From: a virus
DNA: 56,809 nucleotides
Virus record (IMG/VR): IMGVR_UViG_3300046170_000220
Location: 1 to 56,809 of that record
Direction: 5' to 3' (one strand)
The stretch's first letter is position 1. Each line of letters begins with the position of its first letter. A program made the translations under genes and the position numbers. This document shows positions 5,490-31,284 of this stretch, piece by piece. The notes beneath the pieces are model-generated. The model was given only the letters and a program-made list of their open reading frames with translations, searched no databases and had not been told where the DNA came from.

Positions 5490-6315
5490 GCCTAAGCTAA
5501 CAGAGAAAAAAGCAGCAGAAAGAAAAGCTGAAGCTGTTGTGCAGGCAAGGGTAGCTGAGGTTATTGAGGATGCCAAAGCTGGTCTTAAAAACGGAGAACT
5601 TCTCAAGAAGAACGGAACCATATCTCTTGGCAAGGTTAAGTCTAGGCTAAAGCTAAACCAGAATGAGGCCGTTGCCGTTGTCGATAAGCTCAAAGCTATT
5701 GGCTATGCCACACCTATTTCCCCGACAGAACTAAAGCCAATTCTACCAGAAGCCCGCCTCGAACCTGCAAACTTTACTAAAGTTCGCATGCTGCAAGACG
5801 GTGTGGCTAACAATAAAGATTATCTGGCTGGCGCAGAAGTCAGTGTAACTGACACGGAAGCATTAGTGTTGCAGCAAACAGGCGTTGCTGAACCCATCTC
5901 TGAAGGCCCGTCACCAGAGCAGGAAGCCCTAAGAGAGTTTCAGGTGGCTATGCAGGAGCTACAGTTCGACAGAGCAGAGCAGCAAAGACGCCTAGACAAA
6001 ATGAAAGAGGCTGGCGCTCAGGATCAGACTCAACAAATCATGCTGGAAAACCAGCAGCGCGTAGTCGATGAGGCAAACGCAAGGCTTCAGGCAGCCCTCA
6101 ACAAAGAGCAAGAGCTGCTAGCTAAGGCCAACCTCTCCAACCCTCAGAACTCTGATGGACTGCCAGCAGATCAGGTGCTAGCAAACGAAGCTCGACAGGC
6201 AGCGGAAGAGTCAACCGCATCTCAGCCAACTGAAGAGTACAAGCGGAAGATAAACACCGTAGCCAACCTGCTGCGTAAGTACATGTTTAAAGAGCTTGGC
6301 ATCAAGGGACGTTGA
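5371..6315 (+). CDS. Giant polyvalent internal protein, fourth fragment
   Basis: The meaningful part begins at about 5478 (ETFEPKLTEKK); earlier codons are out of frame with the real protein. It includes a small winged-helix-like region (LGKVKSRLKLNQNEAVAVVDKL at about 90-115), then long Gln/Glu-rich coiled coil. It closes with LGIKGR. Removing one G from the GGG at 6307-6309 gives LGIKDVDIVTENVL and joins the intact 6296-13138 frame. The fragment belongs to the giant internal protein. Confidence 0.6.
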   Translation: MRHHSQETNLRKLCHLPLVRTGALRLRIVRDRRGFPETFEPKLTEKKAAERKAEAVVQARVAEVIEDAKAGLKNGELLKKNGTISLGKVKSRLKLNQNEAVAVVDKLKAIGYATPISPTELKPILPEARLEPANFTKVRMLQDGVANNKDYLAGAEVSVTDTEALVLQQTGVAEPISEGPSPEQEALREFQVAMQELQFDRAEQQRRLDKMKEAGAQDQTQQIMLENQQRVVDEANARLQAALNKEQELLAKANLSNPQNSDGLPADQVLANEARQAAEESTASQPTEEYKRKINTVANLLRKYMFKELGIKGR

Positions 6316-9300
6316 CATTGTAACTGAGAATGTTCTTGAGCCTGACAAGATCAAAGACGGCTTTATTGTCGAGGGTTACTATGACGGTAGCGGCGAAGGC
6401 AGGAAGATCATCGCCCTTGCCATGGAGATATACGACCCGAACCTGACTGAAGCACAATTGTTCCAGCGTCTGCGTGGCGTCCTTAACCATGAGGTCATCC
6501 ACGCCCTGCGTGGCCTTGGCGTACTGACTGAGCAGGAGTTCGCCACTCTTGTTAAGGCAGCGTCTAAGCGTAAGTTTGTCAAGAAGGTTGGTGGTAGATT
6601 AGTCGAAAGAGACTACACATTCCTTGACCGCGCTGTAGCCATGAACGAAGGCCAGAGCATTGAGTATCAGCAAGAGGAAGCTGTTGCTGAAATGTTTAGG
6701 TCTTATGCTGATGGCAAGATCAAGGTTGCTGGCAAGCCTAGAACAATCTTCCAGAAGATAGGCAGGTTCTTCAAGTCTATATTCAACGCCCATAGGGATG
6801 CTGGCTTCACTGATGCGGCCTCTATCTTTGACAACATCCAATCAGGCAAGATTGGCAGAAGAGAGAGAAGCCTACAAAAAGCAGCGGCAGTACCAGCAGG
6901 AACAAAGTATTCCACCGCCGGTATCAGGGCCGGATTCCACGCGCCTGACATCGACAAGAAAGCTGCTGAACGCATAGGCATGTCCTTTAAGGATGTGACC
7001 AAGCGTGTAGAGGAGTTAACAAAAAGTGCAAATGAACTTTCTGATGGCGAAATAACCTACGATGAGTACGACAAAAGAGTTAATAAGTTCAAGCCGATCA
7101 TTCCGTACCAGACCGTACCAGCGCCAGCTACGACAAAAGAAATGGTCTCCGCTTTATCCGAAGGGAAAAAGGCTAAAGTGGGAAAAGCGTCAGAGATACA
7201 AGACAACACCCCTGTCAAACTAAGACTGGACATACCATCATACACACAGAAGGGTGTGTGGGTTCCCACCATCCACGGTCAAGACAACAGAACAATTGCC
7301 CACGAAAGCACAGCCATTGTTACCAATGCTAAGTTTTCTGCAAGCGACAGGACAGCTTTAAGAATAGCTAAGGGCGCTGCCAAAGGACCGTTTGCTACAA
7401 TTGATGGCATGTTTAAATATGCAACGCCAGACAATGCCTTTGCCGTAGCGCAAGAAATGTTGGCTGACCCAACAGTTGTTCAGGTTGGCTTTGATCCTGA
7501 GCGTCATTCATACTTCTATGACCGCACCACGACAGAGCCTGTTGTTTCAGCCGACTTAGTTGTACAGGTTGGCCCTCTTGTGCTGGCAAAGAACCCACAG
7601 TTTGCGCCTAAGTCTGACTTCAAGTATTCGGTGGCAAGGACTCAGGGATTAAACACAATAAGAGAGTTTATTAAAAACAACCCAGACGGATTTACCATAA
7701 CATCTCAGGGCGTTTCTGTCCCGATAGGAACCCCCGATAGTGGTATCGTAGTCGCTCCAATTAAGGACGCGGAACTTATTGTAGGTGGTGATATACCAAT
7801 CAATGTTCTTAGGGAGTATATCGAAAACGCTAAGGCTATGTCAGGAATATTTAACAGAGAGGTTTTCCTTGGAGGCTGGCTCAACAATGACAATGGCAAG
7901 TATTACCTTGACAACACACTCATAGTAAACGATAAGGCAGAGGCACTCTATTTTGCTCAGGCGGCGAAGCAAATAGCTGTTTATGATTTGAGAGTGCCGC
8001 CGTATGGACAGGAGATAGTTACAGATGAAGGAATCAAACAACTCCAAGAAGCCGGTATTTATAGGAGTGACACCGCAGAGCAATACAGAAGAAGTATTGA
8101 GCGAGCTAGTGGCCTCTTTAGAGCGGCAAGGATTGAAAATCAAAGACAAAGAGAAGCCGAGGCAAGCCTAGCTGCCAGAGCTTACTCGGTAGCCATTACC
8201 CCAAAGGCAGACCCTAACGGCAACGTGCGCCTTACTCACTACTCTCCTATGACAGACCTTGAGGTTGTTAACCCTGAAGAGCAAGGCTCTAACTACAGGA
8301 TGCGTGGAGAAGAGAGGAAGAGGCAGGCATCAGCTTGGCGGCAGGACTACCCAGCAAGAAGTTACTATGGCCTTAATGTTGGCGAAGAGGGTGGTTACTC
8401 TAAAGAGTATTCTGTCGGAGAAAATGTATATGTTGCCGATGTTCCTCTTGCAGACCTATATAACTTTGAAGAAGACCCAGAGGGATTCAAATCTAAAGCT
8501 GATGGCATGATAACCGATAGGGTTATGGAGCTTTCTTGGGGTGACCCTCAAGGATTCATCCTGACTCAGGCCGAGAAGATGGTTGCTGATGCTGGTTACT
8601 CTGGGTACTACACCAACACCCCAATGGGCTTGGTTGCTGCGATGTTTAACCCAATTAAAGTTAGGCCTAATATTGCTGACGCAAAGAAGTTTTCTATTGC
8701 GAGGCTGTCTCCAGCAGAGATAGGCCTGACATCAATCAACAATGTTAACACCGAGCTTGGCGACCCAGTAAACAATTACTATGTACAGCAAGCCCCATAT
8801 GGCAGCGTTGCTATGCAGACTGCTGTGCTAAAGATGCAACAAGATCGCGGTAACGTGGTTCTGAACTGGGACAACCCAGATAACTGGGAAACATTAGCAC
8901 GGCTTATGGCGGCAGAGGCTGAGGTTGCCCTGTCGCGAGATAAGAATGCTCTTGGTTGGTACGACAGAACACTCGATACCGCCAAGCGTGTCACATCTAT
9001 ATTGTTCCCAGACATCAAGCCAAATACAGATGCTGAAAGCGCATTCATATTTGCTACTGCCGTTACATCAAACGGTGTTCCTGTTATTGGTAACTGGCAA
9101 GCAGCAGCAGAGCAGTACAAAAACTGGAAAGAAACAGGACGGTTTATTGAGAAGGGTTATGGAGACCAAGGCTCCAGCATGATCCCAGCATTCCAGCTCT
9201 ACAATGCAATGAAGGATCTAAACTACACAGACCTTGAGATTAAAGACTTCCTGAATCAGAAGATGACTGTAAGTGAGTTACGGCAAAATAATCTCTTGAA

Positions 9301-12300
9301 AGAGCTGGGCTACAAAGACAGTGGAGCTGAATCGGCAGACACTGAAGTTTTTGTATCATACATTCTGGGACCAAAAATCGGTCAAGGTTTTTACCAGAAC
9401 CTAGTTGGCAACTTTAACACACTCACCATGGATCGATGGTGGATGCGGATGTTTAACCGTATAAGTGGTCAGCCTTTCGTTAACCCAGAGCGTCCTGAGA
9501 CATTCGATAAGCGTGTATCTGAGATCATTGAGTTTTCAAACAACCCTGTATCTGATGCAGAGTCCACGATTATTAACGTGGCAAAGGCTGAAATTAATGC
9601 TGACATCATCACGCCTGAAAATGTTGATGAGTTTTCGTATGCGGTTAATAGATATTTTCAGAGGGTCTATAAGCGCCTGACACAAAGTATTAATACAGCA
9701 AAGGAATCTCTGGCTATTGCAGAGCAGTCTGGAGATTCTGCCGCAATACAGAAGGCAACGGATGATCTTCTCAACGCCGAGAAGAACAGGAATAGAGACC
9801 CCAACAAAATATTCCTGCCATTCAAGTCACGTTTGTTCCAGCGTGTAAGTGGACACGTTAAGAAGCTGGAAGATGCCCGCAAAGGCGGAGCCATGCAGGA
9901 AGACCCGCGCTCTCCAAAGCAGCGTCAAGCCATGAGGGCAATAGCTAATCGAGCAAGAGAGATAGTCCAAGAGGATCTTGGCACCTCAATGTCTAACGCA
10001 GATTTTCAAGCGCTGATGTGGTATCCTGAGAAAAATCTCTTTTACTCTTATGGGGTAAAGAAGGGTCAGGGTGACGACAATGATTACATAGATGGGGCAA
10101 TAGCACTATTAGAAAAGGAAGGTTACAATGTTGACACCATCGCGCAAGCACTCCCCGAATCAGACGCAAGGATCGTCAATGATAGAAAGGGTGCCGCAGA
10201 ATCGTATGAGAGAACTGGTATTGAGCTTACAGAACCAGATAGACCAGAAGAAGGCGCAGTCGGTGATGCTGGAGGAAGAAAGCGAAGCGTAGCTCGCGTA
10301 GCTCCTGAACGTGATTATTCTATGCCAACTCAGGTTCTGTCTGACAGGATAGACCAACAGGCAAAGAACCACACATATGATAACGCATCTCGCATTCTTG
10401 CCAAGGTTATCCGTGGCGCTACATTCGGTAATGTCAGTAAGCAGAAAGCCCAAGGATTATCTGAAAGGTTCCTGACCAAGTATCAGGACTCTATGCTGCC
10501 GCTTGGCAAAATGCTAGACGAGATACGCGCCAACCCAGACAACGATATGGTCGATGCCTTTGATGCGTATATGCAGGAAGAGCTTTCTCAGGGCGTAGCC
10601 GGTGCCAGAATAGCGAACAACACTCAAGATTTCTTTGAGCCTATTGCGGAGGCTATGAAGAACATTGATGTGTCAGAAGTTCAATTGAACTCTATTGGCT
10701 CCAAGTATATTAGAGACTACCTAGCAACAGAGGCAGACCCACGGCAGGTGATTGCTGACGCTTACCTATATGCCAGACACGCCAAGGAAAGAAATAAGTA
10801 CATCCTAGATAGGTACAAGCGCGGTAATGGATCGGGTATGTCTGATGCTGAGGCAGATACCATACTGTCTTGGGTGAACGGTCAGCCAGTTGACATAAAG
10901 GCAAGCCTTGATGAGGTTGCATCCATAGCTGACCAGATTATTGAAAGCACAAACGCCTTCCGTAAAGAGGGTGATCTTATACCTGACTTTGCACAAGTAG
11001 CCGCCGACCCTGAGTCTAAATGGCAGCCAACAAACTTCAGCTTCTATGTCCCGTTACGAGGAACCTTAACCCCTGAAGAGGAATCAGTAGACGACTTTGG
11101 TAATGTGCCAAGGAGAACGCCCAATCTATATGGCGCTAGAGGGCGCAACGATGCTCGCATGCAGGGTCGCGGCAACGAGTACGCCACTGACATCGTGTCT
11201 CACTTGATGGCGCAGAACATGCTGACTATCCAGAGGGCTGAGAAGAACAAGGTTGGCAAAGCTTTCTATGACATGGTTGCCAGTGATCAGGTTGACACTG
11301 CCGACTATGCAGAGATTGTTAATAAGGTTGCTGACCCTGACAACACATTGACTGTGAAGATCAATGGTGAGGACAAGTATGTTGAGATCTTTGACGACCG
11401 TATAGCAAGAGCAATGAAGGGGGCGATGACACCACAAAGTCAGAGCGGCCTTGTCAAGTTCATGGCTGGTCTGAATCGGCTACTGTCAAACATGAATACA
11501 TCATGGAACCCTGAATTTGTTCTATCGAACTTTCCAAGAGACTTGGAGGCAGCGGGTGTAAACCTAGGCCAGTATGATGAGAAGGGTCTAACAAAGGATG
11601 TGATAGCCGGAGCCTTTCCAGCAGTTAAAGGTATAGGTGACTTCCTTAGAACAGGGAACATATCAAGCGAGTGGTCTGGATGGTACAAAGAGTTTGTTGA
11701 CAACGGGGGCAAGAACGCAACAAACCAGATGTCTGACTTACAGGACAGCATGAACAGCATCAAGTCAGTTCTTAACGACATATCAAACGATGGTCTGTCT
11801 AAGAAGTTTGGTGCCATGAAAAACAAGTTCACTCAGAGCGGCATCATTAAATTCCTAGATGACTGGAACACAGCAGTTGAGAATGGTGTCCGTGTTTCCC
11901 TTTATAAACAACTAGTTGAGAGGGGTTACTCGCCAAAGAGAGCGGCGCAAGCAGCGAGAAACATCACCGTTAACTTTGCTAAGGGTGGTGAGGAAAGAGC
12001 CTTCATGAATGCTTGGTTCCTTTTCTACAACGCATCACTGCAAGGCACGATGGCATTAACTAACGCAGCAGTTCGCTCGCCTAAAGTCAGGAAGCTTTGG
12101 ATTGGCCTGTTGATGTATGGATTCATGCAAGACATGATCCTTGGATCAATGTCAGGTGATGAGGACGAGGATGGCAAGAGTGACTATGACGAGATTGGTG
12201 ATTACGAGTTAGAGCATAACTTTATATTGCCAACATTCGGACTAGCTGACGAAAAGTATATTGCGATTCCGCTTTCATATGGACTCAACATGGCGGTAAA

Positions 12301-13138
12301 CACTGGAAGGTCTGTAAGCAGATTAGCCAGAGGTGAGTACACTCCAAGCCAAGCCGCCGGTTCCATCACCGGCACAGTCCTTGAGACACTTAACCCGCTC
12401 GGCTCTGGAATAGATGATTACGAAAACATCCTTGCCCCAACTGTGGTTGATCCGTTCCTTTCAGTGGCAATCAACAAGGACTACAAGGGCGCACCGATTT
12501 ACAAGGAAGGCTCACCATTTGGTTTGGCAAAGCCAGACAGTCAAATGTACTGGAACAACACTGGGCCTATACCAAAGTTTATTGCTGATCAGGTTAACAA
12601 ACTAACAGGAGGCAGCCGCGTGACTCCGGGGTATGTTGATATGTCTCCAGATGTTTTGGAGTTCTGGTTCAACTACCTAACAGGAGCAACTGGTGCGTTT
12701 GTTAAGCGTTCCATTGAAGCGCCTGTAAATATATATGATGCAATACAGGGCGACTTTGAAGGCACTCTTGTTGAGACCATTCCATTTGTTAGAAAAGTTG
12801 TAGCCACTCCCACCGAAATACAGGACATGGGTACTTACATTGAGAATAAGGACAAGGTTCTTAGAGCGCGTAAGGAACTTGAGACAGCAATCGCATATGG
12901 GGAAGTCGAACAAGCAAACGAAATCAGAAAAGAATATGCAAAGCTTCTGAAAATTTATGGGCTGATCAAAGGATTTGAGAACGCTAGGAACAGACTGATC
13001 AGGAAGAAGAACGAGATCAAGAACAGTCCACGCATACCAGAAGAGCGCAAATCTAACTTGATCCAGAAGATCAACGAGAGGATCAAGGAGATAGTCACAA
13101 GATCAAACAAGGTCATGTATGATGTTGGGATACGGTAA
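6296..13138 (+). CDS. Giant polyvalent internal virion protein, main open frame
   Basis: This frame alone encodes 2280 residues; with upstream fragments repaired the protein is about 3053. Visible modules: an HExxH zinc-protease-like motif (LNHEVIHALRG, residues 65-69); a region at about 318-440 with IAHEST, GPFATIDGMF and HSYFYDR, known from phage polyvalent proteins; a segment from about 645 (RLTHYSPMTDLEV) resembling ADP-ribosyltransferase/toxin-like modules; and a long C-terminal region from about 1720 (LLSNMNTSWNPEFVLSNFPR) of the LPD38-like polyvalent-associated type. It ends in basic coiled coil. Such proteins are packaged and ejected with the DNA. The protease and transferase roles are inferred from motifs only. 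Confidence 0.85.
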   Translation: MASRDVDIVTENVLEPDKIKDGFIVEGYYDGSGEGRKIIALAMEIYDPNLTEAQLFQRLRGVLNHEVIHALRGLGVLTEQEFATLVKAASKRKFVKKVGGRLVERDYTFLDRAVAMNEGQSIEYQQEEAVAEMFRSYADGKIKVAGKPRTIFQKIGRFFKSIFNAHRDAGFTDAASIFDNIQSGKIGRRERSLQKAAAVPAGTKYSTAGIRAGFHAPDIDKKAAERIGMSFKDVTKRVEELTKSANELSDGEITYDEYDKRVNKFKPIIPYQTVPAPATTKEMVSALSEGKKAKVGKASEIQDNTPVKLRLDIPSYTQKGVWVPTIHGQDNRTIAHESTAIVTNAKFSASDRTALRIAKGAAKGPFATIDGMFKYATPDNAFAVAQEMLADPTVVQVGFDPERHSYFYDRTTTEPVVSADLVVQVGPLVLAKNPQFAPKSDFKYSVARTQGLNTIREFIKNNPDGFTITSQGVSVPIGTPDSGIVVAPIKDAELIVGGDIPINVLREYIENAKAMSGIFNREVFLGGWLNNDNGKYYLDNTLIVNDKAEALYFAQAAKQIAVYDLRVPPYGQEIVTDEGIKQLQEAGIYRSDTAEQYRRSIERASGLFRAARIENQRQREAEASLAARAYSVAITPKADPNGNVRLTHYSPMTDLEVVNPEEQGSNYRMRGEERKRQASAWRQDYPARSYYGLNVGEEGGYSKEYSVGENVYVADVPLADLYNFEEDPEGFKSKADGMITDRVMELSWGDPQGFILTQAEKMVADAGYSGYYTNTPMGLVAAMFNPIKVRPNIADAKKFSIARLSPAEIGLTSINNVNTELGDPVNNYYVQQAPYGSVAMQTAVLKMQQDRGNVVLNWDNPDNWETLARLMAAEAEVALSRDKNALGWYDRTLDTAKRVTSILFPDIKPNTDAESAFIFATAVTSNGVPVIGNWQAAAEQYKNWKETGRFIEKGYGDQGSSMIPAFQLYNAMKDLNYTDLEIKDFLNQKMTVSELRQNNLLKELGYKDSGAESADTEVFVSYILGPKIGQGFYQNLVGNFNTLTMDRWWMRMFNRISGQPFVNPERPETFDKRVSEIIEFSNNPVSDAESTIINVAKAEINADIITPENVDEFSYAVNRYFQRVYKRLTQSINTAKESLAIAEQSGDSAAIQKATDDLLNAEKNRNRDPNKIFLPFKSRLFQRVSGHVKKLEDARKGGAMQEDPRSPKQRQAMRAIANRAREIVQEDLGTSMSNADFQALMWYPEKNLFYSYGVKKGQGDDNDYIDGAIALLEKEGYNVDTIAQALPESDARIVNDRKGAAESYERTGIELTEPDRPEEGAVGDAGGRKRSVARVAPERDYSMPTQVLSDRIDQQAKNHTYDNASRILAKVIRGATFGNVSKQKAQGLSERFLTKYQDSMLPLGKMLDEIRANPDNDMVDAFDAYMQEELSQGVAGARIANNTQDFFEPIAEAMKNIDVSEVQLNSIGSKYIRDYLATEADPRQVIADAYLYARHAKERNKYILDRYKRGNGSGMSDAEADTILSWVNGQPVDIKASLDEVASIADQIIESTNAFRKEGDLIPDFAQVAADPESKWQPTNFSFYVPLRGTLTPEEESVDDFGNVPRRTPNLYGARGRNDARMQGRGNEYATDIVSHLMAQNMLTIQRAEKNKVGKAFYDMVASDQVDTADYAEIVNKVADPDNTLTVKINGEDKYVEIFDDRIARAMKGAMTPQSQSGLVKFMAGLNRLLSNMNTSWNPEFVLSNFPRDLEAAGVNLGQYDEKGLTKDVIAGAFPAVKGIGDFLRTGNISSEWSGWYKEFVDNGGKNATNQMSDLQDSMNSIKSVLNDISNDGLSKKFGAMKNKFTQSGIIKFLDDWNTAVENGVRVSLYKQLVERGYSPKRAAQAARNITVNFAKGGEERAFMNAWFLFYNASLQGTMALTNAAVRSPKVRKLWIGLLMYGFMQDMILGSMSGDEDEDGKSDYDEIGDYELEHNFILPTFGLADEKYIAIPLSYGLNMAVNTGRSVSRLARGEYTPSQAAGSITGTVLETLNPLGSGIDDYENILAPTVVDPFLSVAINKDYKGAPIYKEGSPFGLAKPDSQMYWNNTGPIPKFIADQVNKLTGGSRVTPGYVDMSPDVLEFWFNYLTGATGAFVKRSIEAPVNIYDAIQGDFEGTLVETIPFVRKVVATPTEIQDMGTYIENKDKVLRARKELETAIAYGEVEQANEIRKEYAKLLKIYGLIKGFENARNRLIRKKNEIKNSPRIPEERKSNLIQKINERIKEIVTRSNKVMYDVGIR

Positions 13139-15390: not shown

Positions 15391-15661
15391 CGAGTTTCTG
15401 TGGCTGCTGTTGAGCGGCACCATTAGGGCGCTCCTCATATGCATTGCCAAGCAATGAAAGGAATGGCTTGCCAGTCTTTTGGCTAACCTTCTTCCATCCG
15501 ATCAGTGAAACCTTAGGCTTTGTTACACCTCTGCTCATCTGATCAACGAGGTCATTCACGACCTCATCCGATAGCTCAATCTGTCCTGTGTAGTCTGGAC
15601 TTTTTTCGCTTTTCTTTCTGTCGTTCTGAAATAGAACGCCTGATGGTGGGTAGTCATTCAT
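15371..15661 (-). CDS. SSB-like protein with acidic interaction tail
   Basis: A 96-residue protein that ends in KLDDNIPF, the acidic, Phe-terminated tail by which single-stranded DNA-binding proteins recruit partners. The core (KPKVSLIGWKKVSQKTGKPF and LSLLGNAYEE) is short for a full OB fold but fits reduced phage SSB-like proteins. AGGAGAAG precedes the ATG, which overlaps the stop of the annealing-protein gene (ATGA). It probably coats single strands during annealing and replication. A copy of the dispersed palindrome lies about 45 bases upstream, inside the preceding gene. Confidence 0.75.
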   Translation of the reverse strand: MNDYPPSGVLFQNDRKKSEKSPDYTGQIELSDEVVNDLVDQMSRGVTKPKVSLIGWKKVSQKTGKPFLSLLGNAYEERPNGAAQQQPQKLDDNIPF

Positions 15662-16302
15662 GCCGCTTCTCCTTTTGTTTCTAGCGAGTCCGCATGTTTC
15701 TTAAAGTTCAATAGAACTTCTTCGTAAAGTTTTTTATCCCCCTTCTCCAAGGCGGATCTTGCACTCTGGTTTTCTGACCAGAATTTTCTTAGCGCTGGCA
15801 CTGTCTGGCAATCAGGGATGAATGTGTTGAACACCTCAGCCACAAGCTTCACACCCTCAACCTCTTCCTTCTTTCCGTCAGAAGAAGTGATGGTGTGCTT
15901 TGGTTCAGCCCCACTCGGCAGGTCTTCGCCAGCATAGATGTAGTGTCCAAGTCCGTGCATGGCGCAGCACTTAGCTAGGCAACGCTGTAAGGCGGTGTTG
16001 ACTTGGAAGCTGTCTGGATTTGCGACAGCTTTGTTGGCATGGTTTAGGACAGGCAAGACCTCAGTCTGACTATGCCCCTCGATGTCAACCGATACAGTAA
16101 CAAAGGCGTATCCATTTTCATCGAGCATGTATGGGCGCGAACTATTCGCCCCAACATGTAGGTGCTTGGTGTACTTCGCAGAGGGATAATGATCTTTCAC
16201 TATGCCCCAAGCCCAAGCCCAACTCAGATATGTTAGACCATTCTTTTCTTCGGTATGATCAGACACATCGATCAGTGAAAGGGTTTTCCAAACTTCGCTC
16301 AT
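15658..16302 (-). CDS. DUF1071/Sak-type single-strand annealing protein
   Basis: A 214-residue protein with the DUF1071 signature: LTYLSWAWAWGIVKDHYPSA near residue 25 and, at about 95-125, NPDSFQVNTALQRCLAKCCA followed by HGLGHYIYAGEDLP. This family comprises single-strand annealing proteins of Rad52-like fold that pair complementary strands with help of an SSB and an exonuclease. All three partners are encoded here in a row. TAATG joins it to the upstream gene. Its C-terminus is helical and charged. Confidence 0.88.
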   Translation of the reverse strand: MSEVWKTLSLIDVSDHTEEKNGLTYLSWAWAWGIVKDHYPSAKYTKHLHVGANSSRPYMLDENGYAFVTVSVDIEGHSQTEVLPVLNHANKAVANPDSFQVNTALQRCLAKCCAMHGLGHYIYAGEDLPSGAEPKHTITSSDGKKEEVEGVKLVAEVFNTFIPDCQTVPALRKFWSENQSARSALEKGDKKLYEEVLLNFKKHADSLETKGEAA

Positions 16303-16569: not shown

Positions 16570-17433
16570 TTATTCTCCCTTGAATTGTGAACAAAAATCA
16601 GCAACTCCACAGTAGTTGCCCTTACACCTTACCGCTTCTCCGGCTCGGTATTCTATCTCCGTTGCAACGCTCTGTGCTTCGGAAAAATCTTTAGCTTCTG
16701 CCTCGCTATTGAATACACGCATGGCTCGCTTCAATCCCTTCTTCTTTACCGCCCAAGCATCATCTCTTTTCCATGTCTCTTCATCTGAGCATGGCGGGAA
16801 CATCTGCACCAAATCGTAATTCATCTGTGCATCTTGATGCAATTGCACCCGCTCTTTCATGTAGCTGATGCGGTCTTCCTCTGACCAGATAGGTATGTTG
16901 ACCAACACAACAGGAGCCTTTGGGTAGTCAGGCTTGAACTTTGCGTCACGGTTATTCCAGTCTCTGAGTATGGCGCAGATCTGTATCTTGCTAACCCTCA
17001 ATCCTTTGTTCTTTTGAACGAGGTAAGCGTATACGTTAAGCTGGTTCTCCCACTCAGGCTTGCCATGTATGACAGACCAAACGCTAGTGCATTTGTAATC
17101 TGTAATCTCAACAGATGTCCTGCCAATTTTTTGATGATCAATCGCACCTGATATAGTCCAGTCATTTACAGTGGCATACAACCTTTCCTCAAGGATCACA
17201 TCGTCAGACTTATCGCTCTCCAGTATGTGGTGAACAGCAGTGCCGAACAAAGGCCAGATCATATCCGCTACATCAACCTGTCTATCACTCGCGTGATGAT
17301 CACGCATAAGCCTAACCCTTGGGCTATCAATTAATGTTGTCGCTGATATATCAGCTTTGCCTTTACTGTATTTGTCATTTCTGGCAAACTCAACGAATGC
17401 ATTTGGTAGATTGTGTGTGTTAGTTATTTTCAT
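16570..17433 (-). CDS. Cas4/RecB-like PD-(D/E)XK exonuclease with Cys cluster
   Basis: A 287-residue protein with the RecB-family nuclease order: H in FGTAVHHILE (about 82-91), D in ISGAIDHQK, E/D-x-K in ITDYKCTS, and Q/Y in NQLNVYAYL. Three or four Cys near the C-terminus (RCKGNYCGVADFC) suggest an Fe-S cluster as in Cas4 and AddB. Such phage exonucleases resect double-stranded ends to feed annealing proteins. It is the first gene of the minus-strand recombination block, with AGGAGGA ahead of the ATG and a divergent gap of 66 bases to the RusA gene. Confidence 0.85.
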   Translation of the reverse strand: MKITNTHNLPNAFVEFARNDKYSKGKADISATTLIDSPRVRLMRDHHASDRQVDVADMIWPLFGTAVHHILESDKSDDVILEERLYATVNDWTISGAIDHQKIGRTSVEITDYKCTSVWSVIHGKPEWENQLNVYAYLVQKNKGLRVSKIQICAILRDWNNRDAKFKPDYPKAPVVLVNIPIWSEEDRISYMKERVQLHQDAQMNYDLVQMFPPCSDEETWKRDDAWAVKKKGLKRAMRVFNSEAEAKDFSEAQSVATEIEYRAGEAVRCKGNYCGVADFCSQFKGE

Positions 17434-21803: not shown

Positions 21804-22133
21804 TTATTCTCCCTTAGCTTTGGTTAACTCGTCAATAAACTCGCACAACATCTTACGCATAATCATGCTGTCGAATGTGCTGTTAGGCTGTATGTTGACG
21901 CTCATAATCTCTGAGCATCTAGCGATAGCGTAACCGATATCAACACGCCCATCGGCATAGTCTTCTAAGCTGTCCTCAACAGCAGTCTCTATTGCCGATT
22001 GCGCTGACAAAGACCACTGCAACTTATCGCGGTTGTCCTTGCTGTATGGATCGGTTAGCTGTTCGATCAGGTTGTCGAGCGCAACATCAATGGCGTTGCA
22101 CTCAAACTTAGTCAGGTTCGGTTTGATAATCAT
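21804..22133 (-). CDS. Small acidic hypothetical protein
   Basis: A 109-residue acidic helical protein (CNAIDVALDNLIEQLTDPYS, GRVDIGYAIARCSEIM) of unknown family. Its ATG overlaps the upstream HNH gene stop (ATGA). Like its neighbour it looks like an early accessory protein, for which negatively charged small proteins are typical; no target can be named. Confidence 0.65.
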   Translation of the reverse strand: MIIKPNLTKFECNAIDVALDNLIEQLTDPYSKDNRDKLQWSLSAQSAIETAVEDSLEDYADGRVDIGYAIARCSEIMSVNIQPNSTFDSMIMRKMLCEFIDELTKAKGE

Positions 22134-22966
22134 CGATCTACTCTCCTATTAGATTTCTTCTGGTTGTCTTTCCCCAAGATTATTTTCAGGTTTTGATGGA
22201 TGTGTAGGCCGGAGCCTTCCGATCCATCCTTGCCCCGATAGACTAATGGGAACTTGTGATCAACATGCCACACGCCCCTGCCATCACGATAATGTGAGCA
22301 TCGCTCTTGACGACAGTGCGCGTTGAACCTTCTCATCTCTGAATAGATTATGTTGATAGCCCTATGATCAGCCCATCTTGGCGTTGCCCTTTTGATAAGC
22401 TTGTGCCGATCATATTTTCTTTTAGAAGCCCTCTCTGCTTTCTGCCTGATCCTATCAAGCTTGTAGAAGTGATCAATGCTTGAGCGGGTTGTCATCAGGA
22501 AAAGCCGAGTGTTGGCATCAGCTTCCGGCTTGCCCTTTTTTATTTTATGCACAAGGTCATAATACTCTGGCTGAACCTTCAGCTTCAGCTTGAATACGCG
22601 CTTATACAATTGCTTGTGATCCGTCCTAACAAAGAGCATCTTGCAGCTTATGTCGTGTGTATTTCCATACAACGCACTGGCATTCTGATGTGTTTTCTTT
22701 GCTAACATTTTGTAGAAAACATCAGGCTCATTACGACCTATTTTACTGGCATCAACAAGACCACCCACAACTGGGATATATTCTTCATTTAAATTCTTAT
22801 TGATGTTGGAGCCTAACTTCTTATGCGTTTTGTAGTTCGCATAATAGCTGTCGTCAGTGATGACATATTGCTCAGGCAATCCAGATATAAAATCAGTTTG
22901 CTCGAACTCATCAACAAACCTTTCATGACCCTCGATGTTTCCGGCCTTTGTAAATCTCTCACTCAT
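22130..22966 (-). CDS. HNH endonuclease-domain protein
   Basis: A 278-residue protein whose C-terminus has the HNH pattern: VWHVDHKFPLVYRGKDG, then GLHIHQNLKIILGKDNQKKS, with RAINIIYSEMRRFN just before. The N-terminal 150 residues are unlike typical HNH proteins and hold no motif I know. ATG 22966 (after GTG 22969) follows GGGGG six bases away. A dispersed palindrome lies at 22980-22997, just ahead of that site. It may be a free-standing homing-type nuclease or an early nicking enzyme. Confidence 0.75.
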   Translation of the reverse strand: MSERFTKAGNIEGHERFVDEFEQTDFISGLPEQYVITDDSYYANYKTHKKLGSNINKNLNEEYIPVVGGLVDASKIGRNEPDVFYKMLAKKTHQNASALYGNTHDISCKMLFVRTDHKQLYKRVFKLKLKVQPEYYDLVHKIKKGKPEADANTRLFLMTTRSSIDHFYKLDRIRQKAERASKRKYDRHKLIKRATPRWADHRAINIIYSEMRRFNAHCRQERCSHYRDGRGVWHVDHKFPLVYRGKDGSEGSGLHIHQNLKIILGKDNQKKSNRRVDR

Positions 22967-22979
22967 CACGAACCCCCAT

Positions 22980-23001: not shown

Positions 23002-23736
23002 TTAGATGTCACCCAAAAGCTGATCGAGTATCTCAGCTTTTACTCTGCGCTTGAGAAGGCTATGAGCCTTGGCAACATCATTGCCGACAGCATGGACGCG
23101 CTTCTCGTACCCCTCTTGAACCAGCAACCAGCGGTCTTCGGTAAAGGCTATGCCATCCTTGGTTCCTACAAGCACAACGCGATAGGCATCTATGTTGTCC
23201 TGCTTGAGGAACTTGATGTCTCTCTTCTTCGCACTGAGCGTAAACCTCATGCCCTCTGGAGCCTTAACAGCATACAAATCTTTTTCGAAAACAGATTTGA
23301 ACCAGCTTATCGGTACTGTTAAATCATTACTGCGCCGGTATGATGGTGTGTTTTTGTCCGCTGGATCTAGTTGTGCTGTACCTGCGTCAACATCGAACCT
23401 AGACCGCTGGAACAGATCAGATAAAACTCTATCAGCATACACTTTTGACTTTGCTTTTTGCTCGATGACAGGGTGGTAAGGTTGCCTGTCTTTCCTGTCC
23501 CTTCTCATCTGCATGACTGCTGAAGCCAAGCGTTCAAAGTATTCAAAGGCTGCTCTGGCACCTGTTCCTTGCAGATCATCAAGGCTGTCTTGAAAAGCTT
23601 CTGCCTCACCACTCATTCCATGTCGGTGATGAGTGCGAACCTGTTTCCTCCACTCATTTGGTGCGCCCCAGCTTTCAACAAAGCGATCTATCTCTGTCAG
23701 TAAAAACTGCATGTGTTTATATTGTTCTATATTCAT
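23002..23736 (-). CDS. Hypothetical protein downstream of VWA gene
   Basis: A 244-residue protein. The N-terminal half is helical (YKHMQFLLTEIDRFVESWGA, AAFEYFERLASAVMQMRRDR). The second half looks like a small beta-rich domain (AYRVVLVGTKDGIAFTEDRW, LVQEGYEKRVHAVG). I do not recognise it. It lies directly after the VWA gene in the operon, so it could be a partner or substrate of the AAA-VWA pair. Confidence 0.7.
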   Translation of the reverse strand: MNIEQYKHMQFLLTEIDRFVESWGAPNEWRKQVRTHHRHGMSGEAEAFQDSLDDLQGTGARAAFEYFERLASAVMQMRRDRKDRQPYHPVIEQKAKSKVYADRVLSDLFQRSRFDVDAGTAQLDPADKNTPSYRRSNDLTVPISWFKSVFEKDLYAVKAPEGMRFTLSAKKRDIKFLKQDNIDAYRVVLVGTKDGIAFTEDRWLLVQEGYEKRVHAVGNDVAKAHSLLKRRVKAEILDQLLGDI

Positions 23737-23763
23737 AACTGTCTCCTAGGTTAGAGGTGAGGC

Positions 23764-24885
23764 TTACGCCTCAACCTCAATGCGGGTGGTCTGACCGAAT
23801 GGCGCATCATCGCAGTCAGGATAGGTTGAAACCCAAAGCACTGGGTAATCAGGGGCATTATCAGGGTAATCCCAAATGCCCATGTCAGTCAGGTAAACCA
23901 TGTTATCAACAGGCAAACCCTGATCTTCGATGTAGTCAAAGACAGGCTGCACTCGCGTACCGCCGCGCCCCTTCGCACTGATCTTGTCAATGACCTCACC
24001 CTCACAGTAGTGCCTCACATTCTGTACACGGCTGTCGCATGTGATCACTGTGACAGAGCGGGGCTTGTGTTCTTCGGTGATGGCGTTAAGCTCACCAACG
24101 AATTGCTCAAGTTCAAACTGATTGACTGAGCCGCTGGTATCGACAGCAACAACCACATCACCGACACCGATCTTGTCTATGGCTGGCATATAAATACCCT
24201 GCGTATAGTAGACCTTGCGATTGCAACGCCGGAACGTGTAGTCATCAGGCTGGTCACCGCCTACGAAACGGTGGAACACATCGCGCCAGTCAACCTTAGA
24301 CCTACGCATCTTGTTGACCATGCCCTCAATCGCCGCAGGAAGCTTGCCAGCGGCCTTTGCAGCATTAGCAGCCATGAAGACACGCTGATCAATCTCAGCT
24401 TCCATCTGCTTGGCCTCAGCGGGTGATGGGTCTTTACCATCCTTGCCCTTGGCATCCATAACCGCGCCCCATTCGGGTTGTTTGTTCTGATCTTCGGGCA
24501 GTTGCTCGTAAACCTTTTCTGCTGTCATCCCCTTATACTGATCATCAAACAGACCGTTTTCTGGCAGGGTAAAACCAGCATCGATCAGTATGTCATTGAT
24601 CACATAGTCTGCGGCAATGTTCCACCGCTCAGGGTTACGCTCACCGCGCCGCAACATGTGCTTCATGGCAACATGCATGACCTCATGGGCAATGACACCT
24701 GTCACCTCATCCTCACTACAGCGATCTACAAAATCCTCAGACCAGAGAATTTTTGTGCCATCAGTTGCCATGGTCTGACCATCAGGCTGCTGCACAAAGT
24801 GCAATGACAGTGCGAGTGATCCAAAGAATGGATGCTTGATTAAGAGTTTTGTTTTAGATCGTGCGATCTTCTGGGTTGCTTCCAT
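23764..24885 (-). CDS. Metallopeptidase-like/VWA protein, MoxR partner
   Basis: A 373-residue protein of the DUF2201 type. Residues 1-200 hold a zinc-peptidase-like region with HEVMH (67-71) and NIAADYVINDILIDAG. Residues 240-373 form a VWA domain with the MIDAS motif DTSGS (249-253) and later CDSR, GRGGT and YLTDM. VWA proteins work with MoxR AAA+ ATPases to insert metals or remodel target proteins, and the ATPase gene is next door. ATG 24885 follows GGAGA; an upstream in-frame start at 24930 would include the dispersed palindrome at 24897-24916. Confidence 0.88.
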   Translation of the reverse strand: MEATQKIARSKTKLLIKHPFFGSLALSLHFVQQPDGQTMATDGTKILWSEDFVDRCSEDEVTGVIAHEVMHVAMKHMLRRGERNPERWNIAADYVINDILIDAGFTLPENGLFDDQYKGMTAEKVYEQLPEDQNKQPEWGAVMDAKGKDGKDPSPAEAKQMEAEIDQRVFMAANAAKAAGKLPAAIEGMVNKMRRSKVDWRDVFHRFVGGDQPDDYTFRRCNRKVYYTQGIYMPAIDKIGVGDVVVAVDTSGSVNQFELEQFVGELNAITEEHKPRSVTVITCDSRVQNVRHYCEGEVIDKISAKGRGGTRVQPVFDYIEDQGLPVDNMVYLTDMGIWDYPDNAPDYPVLWVSTYPDCDDAPFGQTTRIEVEA

Positions 24886-24896
24886 GATTGTCTCCG

Positions 24897-24916
24897 AAAA
24901 GTGCAGTTGAACTTTT
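24897..24916. promoter_or_regulatory. Dispersed palindrome ahead of VWA gene
   Basis: AAAAGTGCAGTTGAACTTTT lies directly upstream of the GGAGA ribosome site of the VWA gene and downstream of a GC hairpin. It belongs to the AGTKC-N4-GAACT family. It could control transcription starting between the AAA and VWA genes. Confidence 0.6.
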
Positions 24917-24920
24917 GGAA

Positions 24921-24938
24921 GGGGGCGCAACCGCCCCC
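24921..24938 (-). promoter_or_regulatory. GC-rich hairpin between AAA and VWA genes
   Basis: GGGGGCG (24921-24927) pairs with CGCCCCC (24932-24938) around a four-base loop, eight bases after the AAA stop in the minus direction. No T run follows, so it is more likely an mRNA stabiliser, attenuator or processing site than a full terminator. Confidence 0.6.
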
Positions 24939-24945
24939 CTCAAAT

Positions 24946-25959
24946 TTACAGGATAAGATGCTTGCCATCTGACAAGATCCACTGGCGAACCGCCTCAACA
25001 TTTTTTAGATCACGATCACGCGCCAGCGCATCTTTGATAACGAAAGCTGCGAACTCTTGTTGCGGTAACCGCTTGAGGTATCGGATCACATTGCCAGCGT
25101 TGGCCTTGCTCATTTTGTAGGCCAGTGCTGACGACACCGCATAGAGTACAGCCGGATCATCAGGCAGCACCGCGCTATCAGGGTTAGCAATAAGCTGATC
25201 CATATCAGGCACTGCTTCGTACACACGCAGGAAGCCGATAAAATCAGCAGCGGCTGGGCGTCCAACCTGACCGGCGATTGCTTCGGTCTGGCAGACTGCA
25301 TCTAATCCCCATGACAAAATGCTCGACACCCGATCCCATGATCTTGGTGATGGGCATGCGCTGGCGTCACGCTCAAACTTGTGCAAGAACTCAGGCCGGA
25401 ACCTGATAAAAGCACAGACCTGCTGGGCAACGCCTTTGGCATTGTAATATTTGATAGTGTCATCGAGGTCTGCCTCAACTTCCAAAAACATCAGGCGGTC
25501 ACGCAGATGCGTTGGCATGTTGTTGGTGCCAGCCCTGTCACTGGTGCGGTTGCCAGCGGCAACGATAGACCAGCCATCAGGCAAGCGGTGATCACCGACA
25601 CGCCGCTCATTAACAATCTGGGCAGCAATGTTCTGATTAGACACTGGTGCTTGTGGCAGTTCATCCAAGAACAGAATGCCCTCACCATCCTTGGGCATCC
25701 AATCAGGGCGAAGCCGTTTCATTCCATCGCCATCATTGACAAGCCAGCCAGCCAGTTCACCGGCATCATATTGGGCAAGGCTCACGATCTTACAATCGAG
25801 GTCGCGCTGTTCTGCAATCTCTTGAATGATTGAGGTTTTACCAAGACCAGCACCGCCGACAAGGTATGGCACGACACGACAAGCGTCACGCCCTGTTGAT
25901 TGATTTACTTGGCTGTCGATTGAAGCCTCGACAATAGCTTTTGCTTGCGACAGTTTCAT
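24946..25959 (-). CDS. MoxR-like AAA+ ATPase
   Basis: A 337-residue AAA+ protein with Walker A GGAGLGKT (35-42), Walker B ILFLDELPQAP (about 91), a sensor-1 stretch WSIVAAGNRTSDRAGT and an arginine region HLRDRLMFLEV. The order matches the MoxR/RavA group, hexameric ATPases that act with VWA-domain partners. The next gene encodes such a partner. ATG 25959 follows GGGAG at good spacing. The C-terminal third (190-337) is helical lid sequence. Confidence 0.9.
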   Translation of the reverse strand: MKLSQAKAIVEASIDSQVNQSTGRDACRVVPYLVGGAGLGKTSIIQEIAEQRDLDCKIVSLAQYDAGELAGWLVNDGDGMKRLRPDWMPKDGEGILFLDELPQAPVSNQNIAAQIVNERRVGDHRLPDGWSIVAAGNRTSDRAGTNNMPTHLRDRLMFLEVEADLDDTIKYYNAKGVAQQVCAFIRFRPEFLHKFERDASACPSPRSWDRVSSILSWGLDAVCQTEAIAGQVGRPAAADFIGFLRVYEAVPDMDQLIANPDSAVLPDDPAVLYAVSSALAYKMSKANAGNVIRYLKRLPQQEFAAFVIKDALARDRDLKNVEAVRQWILSDGKHLIL

Positions 25960-25983
25960 CACTATCTCCCATTTGGTTAAATA

Positions 25984-26038
25984 CAGCGAGACGCTGCGAC
26001 ACTGCCGGAGCAGTGTTTCGGGGGTGTCTCACGCCCCC
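25984..26038 (-). promoter_or_regulatory. Triple hairpin region between early genes
   Basis: Three adjacent stems fill this gap: CAGCG/CGCTG (25984-25996), ACACTGC/GCAGTGT with tetraloop (25999-26016), and GGGGG/CCCCC (26020-26038). They lie between the unknown 216-residue gene and the MoxR-like gene. The region may uncouple or protect parts of the message. No T run follows. Confidence 0.6.
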
Positions 26039-26051
26039 ATCTTCAGGCAGC

Positions 26052-26702
26052 TTAGGCAGCTTCAAATGCGGCAATGACATCATCAACATCATTATTTTCT
26101 GCTTCGACAGAAGCCTTGGCAGCAGCGGCAGCCTCATCAGCAGCCAGCCTTGCAGCCTTATATTCGCGATAGAAGTTGTCGAACTCATCCCAGTCTGACT
26201 GGTCAAACTTGGAAGCTTTGAAGTTGCCAGCCACTGTGGTTTTACCGAACAGTTTTTGAGCCAGCTTTTCCATTTCGCTTGCTGCATCAGCGTCTTTGAC
26301 AAACGCCGCCAGCTTGGCCTCCGAGGTAATGCCCTCATCAGTGAAAAGCTGAAAGACATATGAAGGGGTGCAATTTGCTGAAGGGATATCCAACTTGCGG
26401 AATGCACCAGCCGAATTTTCGACATACCGCTTTGTGGTTGCATCAGAGCAGCCGCCATCAGTGCTGAGGTCTTCCCGAATGCGCTTTGAAACAGCGCGGG
26501 GGAAGTGTTTATTCTTGCCGTTGCCGGTCAGCTTCACACCAGCATTTGCAATCGCGCTGATCAGTTCAGCGTAGGCCGTGATCTTTGCAGCATTGACCTG
26601 CTCAGAGTTGGCCTTGTTTGTGGCCTTCAATGCGCCAATCTCGCCCTCAGTGTTTGCGATAGTGTCTAGGGTATTCTGTGAAAGTTCAAAAGTGCTTTGC
26701 AT
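26052..26702 (-). CDS. Unknown protein upstream of the MoxR-like ATPase
   Basis: A 216-residue protein of unknown family: helical N-terminus with a coiled-coil look (TIANTEGEIGALKATNKANS), a basic centre (KHFPRAVSKRIREDLSTDGG), and an Ala/Glu/Asp-rich tail ending VDDVIAAFEAA. ATG 26702 has GGGAGA eight bases ahead. A degenerate palindrome (26681-26698) overlaps the first codons. It is separated from the ATPase gene by a hairpin gap and could be its adaptor or target. Confidence 0.7.
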   Translation of the reverse strand: MQSTFELSQNTLDTIANTEGEIGALKATNKANSEQVNAAKITAYAELISAIANAGVKLTGNGKNKHFPRAVSKRIREDLSTDGGCSDATTKRYVENSAGAFRKLDIPSANCTPSYVFQLFTDEGITSEAKLAAFVKDADAASEMEKLAQKLFGKTTVAGNFKASKFDQSDWDEFDNFYREYKAARLAADEAAAAAKASVEAENNDVDDVIAAFEAA

Positions 26703-27928: not shown

Positions 27929-28399
27929 ATGCCCAAGAAGAAAACACCTGATCATTTACGGCTAGTGGGTGCTGATAAAGATAAGCTAACAGCCAAGCAA
28001 GAAGGCTTTGCCCAAAAGGTAGCAAAAGGTGCAGTTCTCAGTGATGCATACAGGGAATGCTATTCGGCTGATACCATGAAAGATAGCACAGTCTGGACAG
28101 AGGCTTGCAAGCTTGCACAACACCCAAAGGTGTCCAAAAGGATTAAAGACCTACAGGATCAAATAGAGCAGGATCGCCGCACGATAGAGCGCAGGCGAGA
28201 AGAGTGGGTTTTGAAAAGGCTTCAAGAAGAGGCTGATCAGGCAGACAATGCATCATCACGCATTCGGGCATTGGAATTGGTGGGCAAGACCATCGGCATG
28301 TTTACTGATCGGATAGAACAGGCTGACGAGACACAACGCACTGCGTCTGAGATTGAAAAAGAACTCGAAGCGAAACTGGCGCGCCTGCTTGGCGGTTGA
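27929..28399 (+). CDS. Terminase small subunit
   Basis: A 156-residue protein with the small-terminase start LTAKQEGFAQKVAKGAVLSD followed by AYRECY, a helix-turn-helix DNA-recognition region, then a coiled-coil stretch (RRTIERRREEWVLKRLQEEA) for ring assembly and a helical tail. It would bind the packaging site and hand DNA to the large subunit encoded at 29776. AAAGGA lies ahead of the ATG. The separation of the two terminase genes by about 1.4 kb with small inserts is uncommon. Confidence 0.85.
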   Translation: MPKKKTPDHLRLVGADKDKLTAKQEGFAQKVAKGAVLSDAYRECYSADTMKDSTVWTEACKLAQHPKVSKRIKDLQDQIEQDRRTIERRREEWVLKRLQEEADQADNASSRIRALELVGKTIGMFTDRIEQADETQRTASEIEKELEAKLARLLGG

Positions 28400-29589: not shown

Positions 29590-29825
29590 TGTTTTTAGCC
29601 TCGCTATATGTTTGCGTAGCAATGAATATGCAGGAATGCCTTGTTCTTGAGGATATGCGCGGTCCATATGAAACAATCGAGCTTTGTCAGGACAGGGTGC
29701 ATGAGATGGCGGCAGTCGCTCTCTCTGTCGGGCATATCCCAATAAGATTTAGATGTTCTGTCGCAGAGGAAAAAGATGATCCATCTAAAGGACGTAAAAA
29801 ACAAGCTGTCAACTTTATCTCCTGA
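29589..29825 (+). CDS. Small Cys-containing protein with hydrophobic N-terminus
   Basis: A 78-residue protein: a short hydrophobic start (MFLASLYVCVAMNM), then CLVLEDMRGPYETIELCQDR and a late Cys (IRFRCSV). Similar short exported-looking proteins recur in marine phages next to terminase or lysis genes; a relative of the same style is at 42047 here. It could be exported and disulfide-bonded. Its 3-prime 50 bases overlap the large terminase start. Confidence 0.65.
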   Translation: MFLASLYVCVAMNMQECLVLEDMRGPYETIELCQDRVHEMAAVALSVGHIPIRFRCSVAEEKDDPSKGRKKQAVNFIS

Positions 29826-31284
29826 GAAGCAGGCGGAGATACTTGAGCTTCTTGAGCTGTATGAAAACGCAAAGGACAAGGAGGATTGTAGAGAATCATT
29901 CCTGTCTTTCGTGAAAAGGGTATGGCCTGCTTTCATTGCCGGGAGGCACCATGAAATCATGGCCAATGCCTTTGAGCGCGTAGCACGGGGAGAGCTAAAG
30001 CGATTAATTGTTAACATGCCGCCCCGTCACACCAAGTCAGAGTTTGCTTCTTATCTTTTCCCGGCATGGTTTCTTGGGCAATACCCAGAAAAAAAGATCA
30101 TCCAGACAGCCCACACAGCAGAACTTGCTGTAGGATTTGGACGTAAGGTTAGAAACCTGATCAATCAGGAAGACTTCCAAGAGATCTTTCCCGGCATATC
30201 CCTGTCTTCTGACTCGAAAGCAGCGGGAAGATGGAACACAAACAAGCGAGGTGACTATTTTGCTATTGGTGTTGGTGGTGCAGTTACTGGTAAGGGCGCT
30301 GATGTCCTCATTATCGATGACCCGCACTCGGAGCAGGAGGCGGCACTGGGGGCTTACAACCCAGAAGTCTACGACAAAGTATACGAATGGTACACATCAG
30401 GCCCAAGACAGCGTTTGCAACCGGGTGGAGCGATCATAATTGTCATGACTCGATGGTCCGTCAGAGATTTGACGGGGCAAATCGTGAAGTCATACACCCA
30501 AAGAGAGGGTGCGGATGAGTGGGAAGTCATAGAACTCCCTGCAATCATGCCATCCGGTGATCCATTGTGGCCTGAGTTCTGGCCAATAGACCAATTAGAG
30601 GCGCTAAAAGCAGAACTTCCCATTTCAAAATGGTCTGCTCAGTACCAACAGGACCCAACATCAGAGGAAGGCGCACTAATCAAGCGCGAATGGTGGCAGG
30701 AATGGGACAAAAGTTCCTTCCCGCCTTGTGAAGCTATCATTCAAAGCTGGGATACGGCGTTTTTGAAGACGCAACGTGCTGATTACAGTGCATGCACAAC
30801 ATGGGGTGTGTTTAACTGGCCAGATGAAAGCGGTGTATCCCACCCAAACCTGATATTGCTGGACGCATACAAAGAAAAGCTGGAGTTTCCAGAGCTAAAA
30901 CGTGCAGCCTATGACAAATACTGGGAATGGGAGCCGGATCAGATGATTGTCGAGGCAAAAGCTGCCGGGTCTCCGCTGATATTTGAGCTTAGAGCTATGG
31001 GAATCCCGGTAACAGAGTTCACCCCATCGCGTGGGCAAGATAAAATAGCTCGCGTTAATGCAGTGACAGACCTGTTTGCTAGTGGTAGAATATGGTGTCC
31101 GCCTACAAGGTGGGCAGAAGAGGTAGTTGAGGAGTGCGCTGCTTTCCCTGCTGGAGAGCATGACGATTTGGTTGACTCTACAACTCAAGCCCTTTTAAGA
31201 TTCAGGCAGGGTGGCTGGATCAGATCTTCAATGGACGACTGGGATGACGAACCTAAATACAGAAGACCAACAGAATACTATTAA
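29776..31284 (+). CDS. terL: Terminase large subunit
   Basis: A 502-residue packaging motor. The ATPase half has a Walker A-like MPPRHTKS (81-88) and Walker B VLIIDDPHS (about 176). The RNase H-like nuclease half has SWDTAF (about 323) and later acidic positions at VEAKAAGSP and EHDDLVDST (about 461). It pumps DNA into the prohead and cuts it. The type resembles large terminases of headful and T7-like marine phages; the packaging mode cannot be fixed from motifs. It overlaps small genes at both ends. Confidence 0.95.
   Translation: MIHLKDVKNKLSTLSPEKQAEILELLELYENAKDKEDCRESFLSFVKRVWPAFIAGRHHEIMANAFERVARGELKRLIVNMPPRHTKSEFASYLFPAWFLGQYPEKKIIQTAHTAELAVGFGRKVRNLINQEDFQEIFPGISLSSDSKAAGRWNTNKRGDYFAIGVGGAVTGKGADVLIIDDPHSEQEAALGAYNPEVYDKVYEWYTSGPRQRLQPGGAIIIVMTRWSVRDLTGQIVKSYTQREGADEWEVIELPAIMPSGDPLWPEFWPIDQLEALKAELPISKWSAQYQQDPTSEEGALIKREWWQEWDKSSFPPCEAIIQSWDTAFLKTQRADYSACTTWGVFNWPDESGVSHPNLILLDAYKEKLEFPELKRAAYDKYWEWEPDQMIVEAKAAGSPLIFELRAMGIPVTEFTPSRGQDKIARVNAVTDLFASGRIWCPPTRWAEEVVEECAAFPAGEHDDLVDSTTQALLRFRQGGWIRSSMDDWDDEPKYRRPTEYY

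Follow-up and report, generated by a model that had tools for sequence, protein, structure and literature searches.

Here, we present an analysis of four adjacent genes in a 56.8-kb IMG/VR record of a marine bacteriophage (IMGVR_UViG_3300046170_000220), the whole of which is referred to as the window and provides the numbering used throughout. The genes lie on the minus strand in the order P216, MoxR-clade AAA+ ATPase, metallopeptidase-VWA protein and P244; all four are present, and they sit between the rightward terminase genes and the replication/recombination region. We found that the four genes are conserved together and in this order in related marine viral contigs, that the catalytic and metal-site residues of the two central proteins are intact, that the module has an early-type orientation, and that P216 and P244 are absent from known families. 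Altogether, we consider it probable that the four genes form one ATP-driven protein-remodeling module for early/middle infection, in which P216 and P244 are dedicated, lineage-specific partners. The central pair is already known; what is new is the four-gene module.

Results

A scan with an alignment of the VWA protein gave 80 kin contigs, and iterated profiles then run on the fetched loci detected P216 in 79 and P244 in 73. Among 84 related marine viral contigs (the window included), which are not independent and of which 34 are left once near copies are removed, the ATPase was found in 80, P216 in 78 and P244 in 72. When present, these three genes always had the same strand and order around the VWA gene; in 80/80 kin contigs holding it, the ATPase gene shared the strand of the VWA gene and preceded it. 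The ATPase and P216 were absent only if less than 1.3 kb of contig was available upstream of the VWA gene, and the P244 absences mostly had less than 2 kb of contig downstream of it. Because the 84 contigs were found via the VWA gene, reciprocal scans were added. Starting from P216, the ATPase gene was located downstream in 64 of 80 contigs, while the remaining 16 end within 2.1 kb; starting from P244, the VWA gene was located upstream in 39 of 46 contigs, and the remaining seven are truncated within 1.6 kb. In the interval from the terminase to the primase genes, every other same-strand family was found in at most 18 contigs, and the four module genes recur despite variable genes inserted between them. 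Because the nearby small genes turn over while the four persist, synteny alone is a poor explanation for their linkage.

The metallopeptidase-VWA protein (23764..24885, minus strand), a putative co-chaperone of the N4 gp25 family, matches PF13203 (DUF2201_N; E value 8.1e-47), PF09967 (DUF2201; 2.3e-25) and phrog_1314 (1.2e-106). Using the numbering of a 388-residue form of the protein, the HEVMH motif spans residues 82-86 and the metal ion-dependent adhesion site (MIDAS) consists of D264-x-S266-x-S268, T325 and D349. H82, E83 and H86 as well as D264, S266, S268, T325 and D349 are invariant in 51 diverse phage homologs with identities down to 22%, and so are D108 and N112. The ATPase (24946..25959, minus strand) belongs to phrog_1297 (3.8e-76), the N4 gp24 family; its Walker A residues G41 and K42, Walker B residues D100 and E101, N138 and R207 show no variation across 48 ATPases. 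The invariance of the HExxH/MIDAS and Walker-type residues argues that the catalytic parts of both proteins are under selection. In a profile comparison, Midasin was the top match of the ATPase (3e-29), and CbbQ/NirQ/NorQ (5c3c) matched at 4e-5, suggesting from sequence that the ATPase belongs to the Midasin/MoxR/CbbQ branch. The name of phrog_1314 in PHROGs, "HNH endonuclease," was ruled out for the VWA protein, in which the peptidase and VWA domains are present and no HNH match was found. The same name is attached to gp25-like proteins in many phage records, and the label looks wrong and widely spread.

P216 (26052..26702, minus strand; 216 residues) and P244 (23002..23736, minus strand; 244 residues) are the first and last genes of the module. 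Searches of Pfam, PHROGs, NCBIfam and PADLOC returned nothing of note for either protein, and comparison with solved structures gave no relative (best E values of 0.4 for the P244 model and 1.3 for the P216 model). P216 and P244 are new protein families. In AlphaFold2 models, P216 (predicted local distance difference test [pLDDT] score 88.5) is almost all-helical with end helices of 45 and 48 residues, while P244 (pLDDT 91.7) has N-terminal helices, a beta domain and a C-terminal helix with an RR motif. Weak cystatin/NTF2-like and dsRBD-like structure matches of P244 are not claimed. Direct tblastn with P216 or P244 found no isolate among phage records, and models of the two families gave no match in 289 bacterial genomes from the class to which the Kordiimonas record belongs, with a positive control (phage records) for the P216 model only. 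In MoxR-vWA ternary conflict systems (PMC7159879), the third component is VMAP, iSTAND, FtsH or the like, accompanied by effectors; P216 and P244 matched no Pfam, PHROG or PADLOC model, in searches that used no profiles dedicated to those components. Both proteins are more divergent than the ATPase and the VWA protein.

The small-terminase-like gene (27929..28399, plus strand; identity inferred from position and sequence) and the gene for the terminase large subunit (29776..31284, plus strand; phrog_38, 3.8e-107) are on the strand opposite the module, and this was the case in 80/80 and 43/43 kin contigs, respectively. The genes for the PD-(D/E)XK exonuclease (16570..17433, minus strand; phrog_2139) and the Sak single-strand annealing protein (15658..16302, minus strand; PF06378, 4.1e-47) are on the same strand as the module, which held in 50/50 and 43/43. 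The ATPase/VWA pair is also in an early/middle-type region in phage N4, in roseophage CRP-7 (58 kb) and in MinM2, a freshwater cyanophage with a similar layout. N4 gp24 and gp25, the counterparts of the pair, have been termed middle genes (PMC4193335). Because the module shares its strand with the recombination genes, is opposite the terminase genes and corresponds to middle genes in N4, the better inference is that it is used early/middle in infection.

A sequence-only reading of this DNA had described a MoxR ATPase adjacent to a DUF2201-like metallopeptidase-VWA protein with an HEVMH motif and an intact MIDAS, an early-type operon, two unrecognized flanking genes and hairpins between genes. 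The Pfam and PHROG matches and invariant residues bear out the pair, the strand shared with the exonuclease and Sak genes and opposite the terminase genes bears out the operon type, and the flanking genes indeed have no Pfam, PHROG or solved-structure relatives; hairpins are present before P216, the ATPase gene, the VWA gene and P244. The gene-order comparison across marine phages that this reading had called for shows the four genes to be syntenic in kin contigs: the flanking genes stay with the pair, their order and strand unchanged, and the HEVMH and MIDAS residues do not vary among the 51 phage homologs.

A tblastn search of 50,697 phage records gave 709 with the VWA protein and 614 with the ATPase, all at less than 60% identity. 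N4 gp24 and gp25 (Schitoviridae) belong to the same two families and are adjacent in the early/middle region; they are listed in the core gene set of N4-like phages, gp25 as "vWFA domain" and gp24 as a protein of unknown function (PMC4193335). However, N4 has no detectable P216 or P244. Group 2.2 jumbo phages encode a MoxR ATPase and a vWA protein that carries a metallopeptidase at its N terminus, for which virion assembly and peptide processing were proposed (PMC7824862); the domain architecture is the same as in the window pair, while the locus of the jumbo phage PBECO4 has no P216 or P244 by profile. In a tree of 97 VWA proteins, the quartet contigs and CRP-7 form one clade (100/98) within a larger group (97/95) that includes MinM2, whose placement is unsure because of a long branch, and bacterial triads (see below); the N4-like and jumbo-phage VWA proteins are outside. 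Thus, the quartet VWA protein groups separately from the N4-like VWA proteins rather than within the gp24/gp25 clade.

In 80 loci from GTDB genomes, the ATPase gene is near the VWA gene in 64, a third gene for a protein of ∼313 residues is present in 32, and neither P216 nor P244 was found. One member of the third-gene family matches PF11348 (DUF3150), and the family matches a DUF3150-annotated gene of MinM2 (probability 100%). ATPase-DUF3150-like-VWA triads are common in Acidobacteriota (L172, L175-L185 and other genome loci), and no mention of DUF3150 was found in the literature searched. These triads, in Acidobacteriota and others, have the same ATPase and VWA families as the quartet and are among the nearest VWA kin of its clade, but by profile comparison their additional, DUF3150-like gene is unrelated to P216 and P244. 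A DUF3150 relationship of P216 or P244 was rejected: the profile comparison gave a probability of less than 1%, and MinM2, where P216 was detected at a probability of 99.9%, holds P216 side by side with the DUF3150-like gene, which is located between its ATPase and VWA genes. Among phage loci, the DUF3150-like profile matches MinM2 only, and the gene is missing from the quartet. MinM2 and the Planktothrix phages Pag-Yong1 and Pra-JY27 are three 65,014-base cyanophage records with the ATPase at 34% identity; because MinM2 shares the layout of the window, these three may be the closest isolates that carry P216. NorQ/NorD, CbbQ/CbbO and RavA/ViaA likewise consist of a MoxR ATPase with a VWA partner. 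The VWA partners in these three systems are not known to carry the DUF2201_N peptidase domain, and the systems act on host enzymes.

Within the module, three start codons differ from those first listed. P216 starts at the ATG at 26702 behind a GGGAG ribosome site, whereas the mechanical list gave a TTG start and 223 residues. The ATPase most likely starts at the ATG at 25959, one codon past the listed GTG at 25962. For the VWA protein, the most likely start is the ATG at 24885 behind GGAGA (373 residues) rather than the TTG at 24930 (388 residues), because of this ribosome site and because close relatives have the same 373-residue form.

The hairpins are located before P216 (26734..26776; z-score of −1.6), as a set of two in the spacer preceding the ATPase gene (25999..26038; −3.3), between the ATPase and VWA genes (GGGGGGCGGTTGCGCCCCC, 24921..24939, read directly in the sequence) and overlapping the stop codon of the VWA gene, ahead of P244 (23758..23773; −2.7), all on the minus strand. 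Folding before the ATPase gene and P244 goes beyond that of shuffled sequences and is weaker before P216. In kin contigs, the 100-base stretches preceding the quartet genes fold more stably than shuffled sequences (mean z-scores of −1.4 to −2.1), and 31-54% of these stretches have z-scores below −2 versus 6% for a coding control; judged against this one control, better-than-shuffle folding may be general to the whole lineage. Directly 3' of P244 is an endonuclease-VII/HNH-like gene (22130-22969, minus strand), which is missing from all kin loci; in close kin, P109 directly follows P244. This gene looks like a recent homing-endonuclease insertion.

Discussion

A common step in MoxR-VWA systems is peptide capture by the VWA domain together with an ATP-driven conformational change (review, PMC7159879; NorQD, PMC13036017). 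For the module described here, we suggest that the MoxR-clade ATPase would most likely act as a hexamer and that the VWA domain would grip a substrate or adaptor via the MIDAS metal site. ATP hydrolysis would strain this grip, and the bound protein would be remodeled and/or handed to the putative zinc-peptidase domain. Because the VWA chain also carries the conserved zinc-peptidase motif, bound proteins may be cut. The long-helix protein P216 and the helical-plus-beta protein P244 would bind the pair as partners, most likely as adaptor and client or regulator. As the target, we prefer a phage replication/transcription complex or some other phage protein required ahead of assembly, over host defense.

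Several observations weigh against a single four-gene module. All kin contigs represent one phage lineage with conserved synteny, their VWA proteins forming the one clade noted above, and co-inheritance accounts for part of the linkage. One contig (L026) has 3.06 kb of room but lacks P244, with no clear truncation excuse. Partial mirror-tree correlations tie the module to the terminase-like neighbor as well, and that between P216 and P244 is 0.04, in a test weakened by the co-inheritance of the entire block. CRP-7 carries a relative of P244, gp16 (profile E value 2e-5), but a profile comparison across its whole genome revealed no P216. In BFVD, the P244 structure is matched best by A0A646QWM3 (321 residues; 2e-9); gp16 is of equal length, and A0A646QWM3 is likely CRP-7 gp16. 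Conversely, MinM2 has no clear P244; MM2_64 fits by position as the equivalent but has profile support of only 9.8% and is not claimed. The lack of P216 in CRP-7 and of a clear P244 in MinM2 argues that the two additional proteins are separable in evolution. The single clade, the one partner missing from each of these isolates and the P216-P244 correlation are what would be expected if the pair alone were the functional unit and P216 and P244 independent genes held nearby by the synteny of one lineage. We consider this unlikely, because the surrounding small genes turn over while the four stay, often with variable genes between them, and because, in the reciprocal scans, P216 and P244 were never seen apart from the pair on contigs with ample room.

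A role in the virion is about equally doubtful. According to this explanation, the pair would be a virion-assembly chaperone and maturation protease that remodels and cleaves structural or ejected virion proteins, with P216 and P244 as scaffold-like helpers. Such a role was proposed for the jumbo-phage pair by analogy with p618/p892 of Acidianus two-tailed virus (PMC7824862); the pair adjoins virion genes in PBECO4, and RPP1, an N4-like phage, has genes for four virion proteins close to the pair even though this region is middle-class (PMC4193335). Phages with the pair also encode very large proteins that possibly need unfolding or processing, i.e., a 2,280-residue protein with the large polyvalent protein domain LPD38 in the window (6296-13138, plus strand), a 2,803-residue coding sequence in the structural region of MinM2 and the virion RNA polymerase of N4-like phages; these giant proteins may be a coincidence or the client of the pair. 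However, in the lineage studied here the module is never on the terminase strand and always with recombination genes, and the pair is in the early/middle-type region of N4, CRP-7 and MinM2. The early-type position would fit host takeover or counter-defense, in which a host enzyme or defense complex would be taken apart or degraded by the machine, with P216 or P244 as the targeting adaptor; the greater divergence of these two proteins would be expected for parts tracking a host target. We regard this as quite improbable: there is no PADLOC match, no result shows any sign of a host target, the pair occurs in hundreds of phages that infect unrelated hosts, and, in contrast to accessory anti-defense genes, it is part of the N4-like core (PMC4193335). 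Similarly, where the sequence-only reading had suggested action on a host polymerase or metalloenzyme, or against host defense, we found nothing pointing to any of these, and its description of the system as undescribed does not hold for the pair, which had been reported in N4 (PMC4193335) and in jumbo phages (PMC7824862).

Returning to the remodeling module, we tentatively propose a fuller version, which we see as possible rather than probable: P216, the ATPase, the peptidase-VWA protein and P244 would constitute a four-component machine with two new families, acting early in infection in a widespread marine phage lineage, in which phage-specific partners would have replaced the DUF3150-like one, with MinM2 as a possible intermediate. 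More generally, it is reasonable to infer that the core pair swaps partners between lineages. Our findings suggest that the partner set varies by lineage, with a DUF3150-like protein in many bacteria, P216 and P244 in the marine phages of this lineage and none recognized in N4-like phages. The gp24/gp25 pair is core in N4-like phages and present in hundreds of others; the two further proteins tied to it here, as candidate adaptor and client, provide concrete handles toward the target of the machine.

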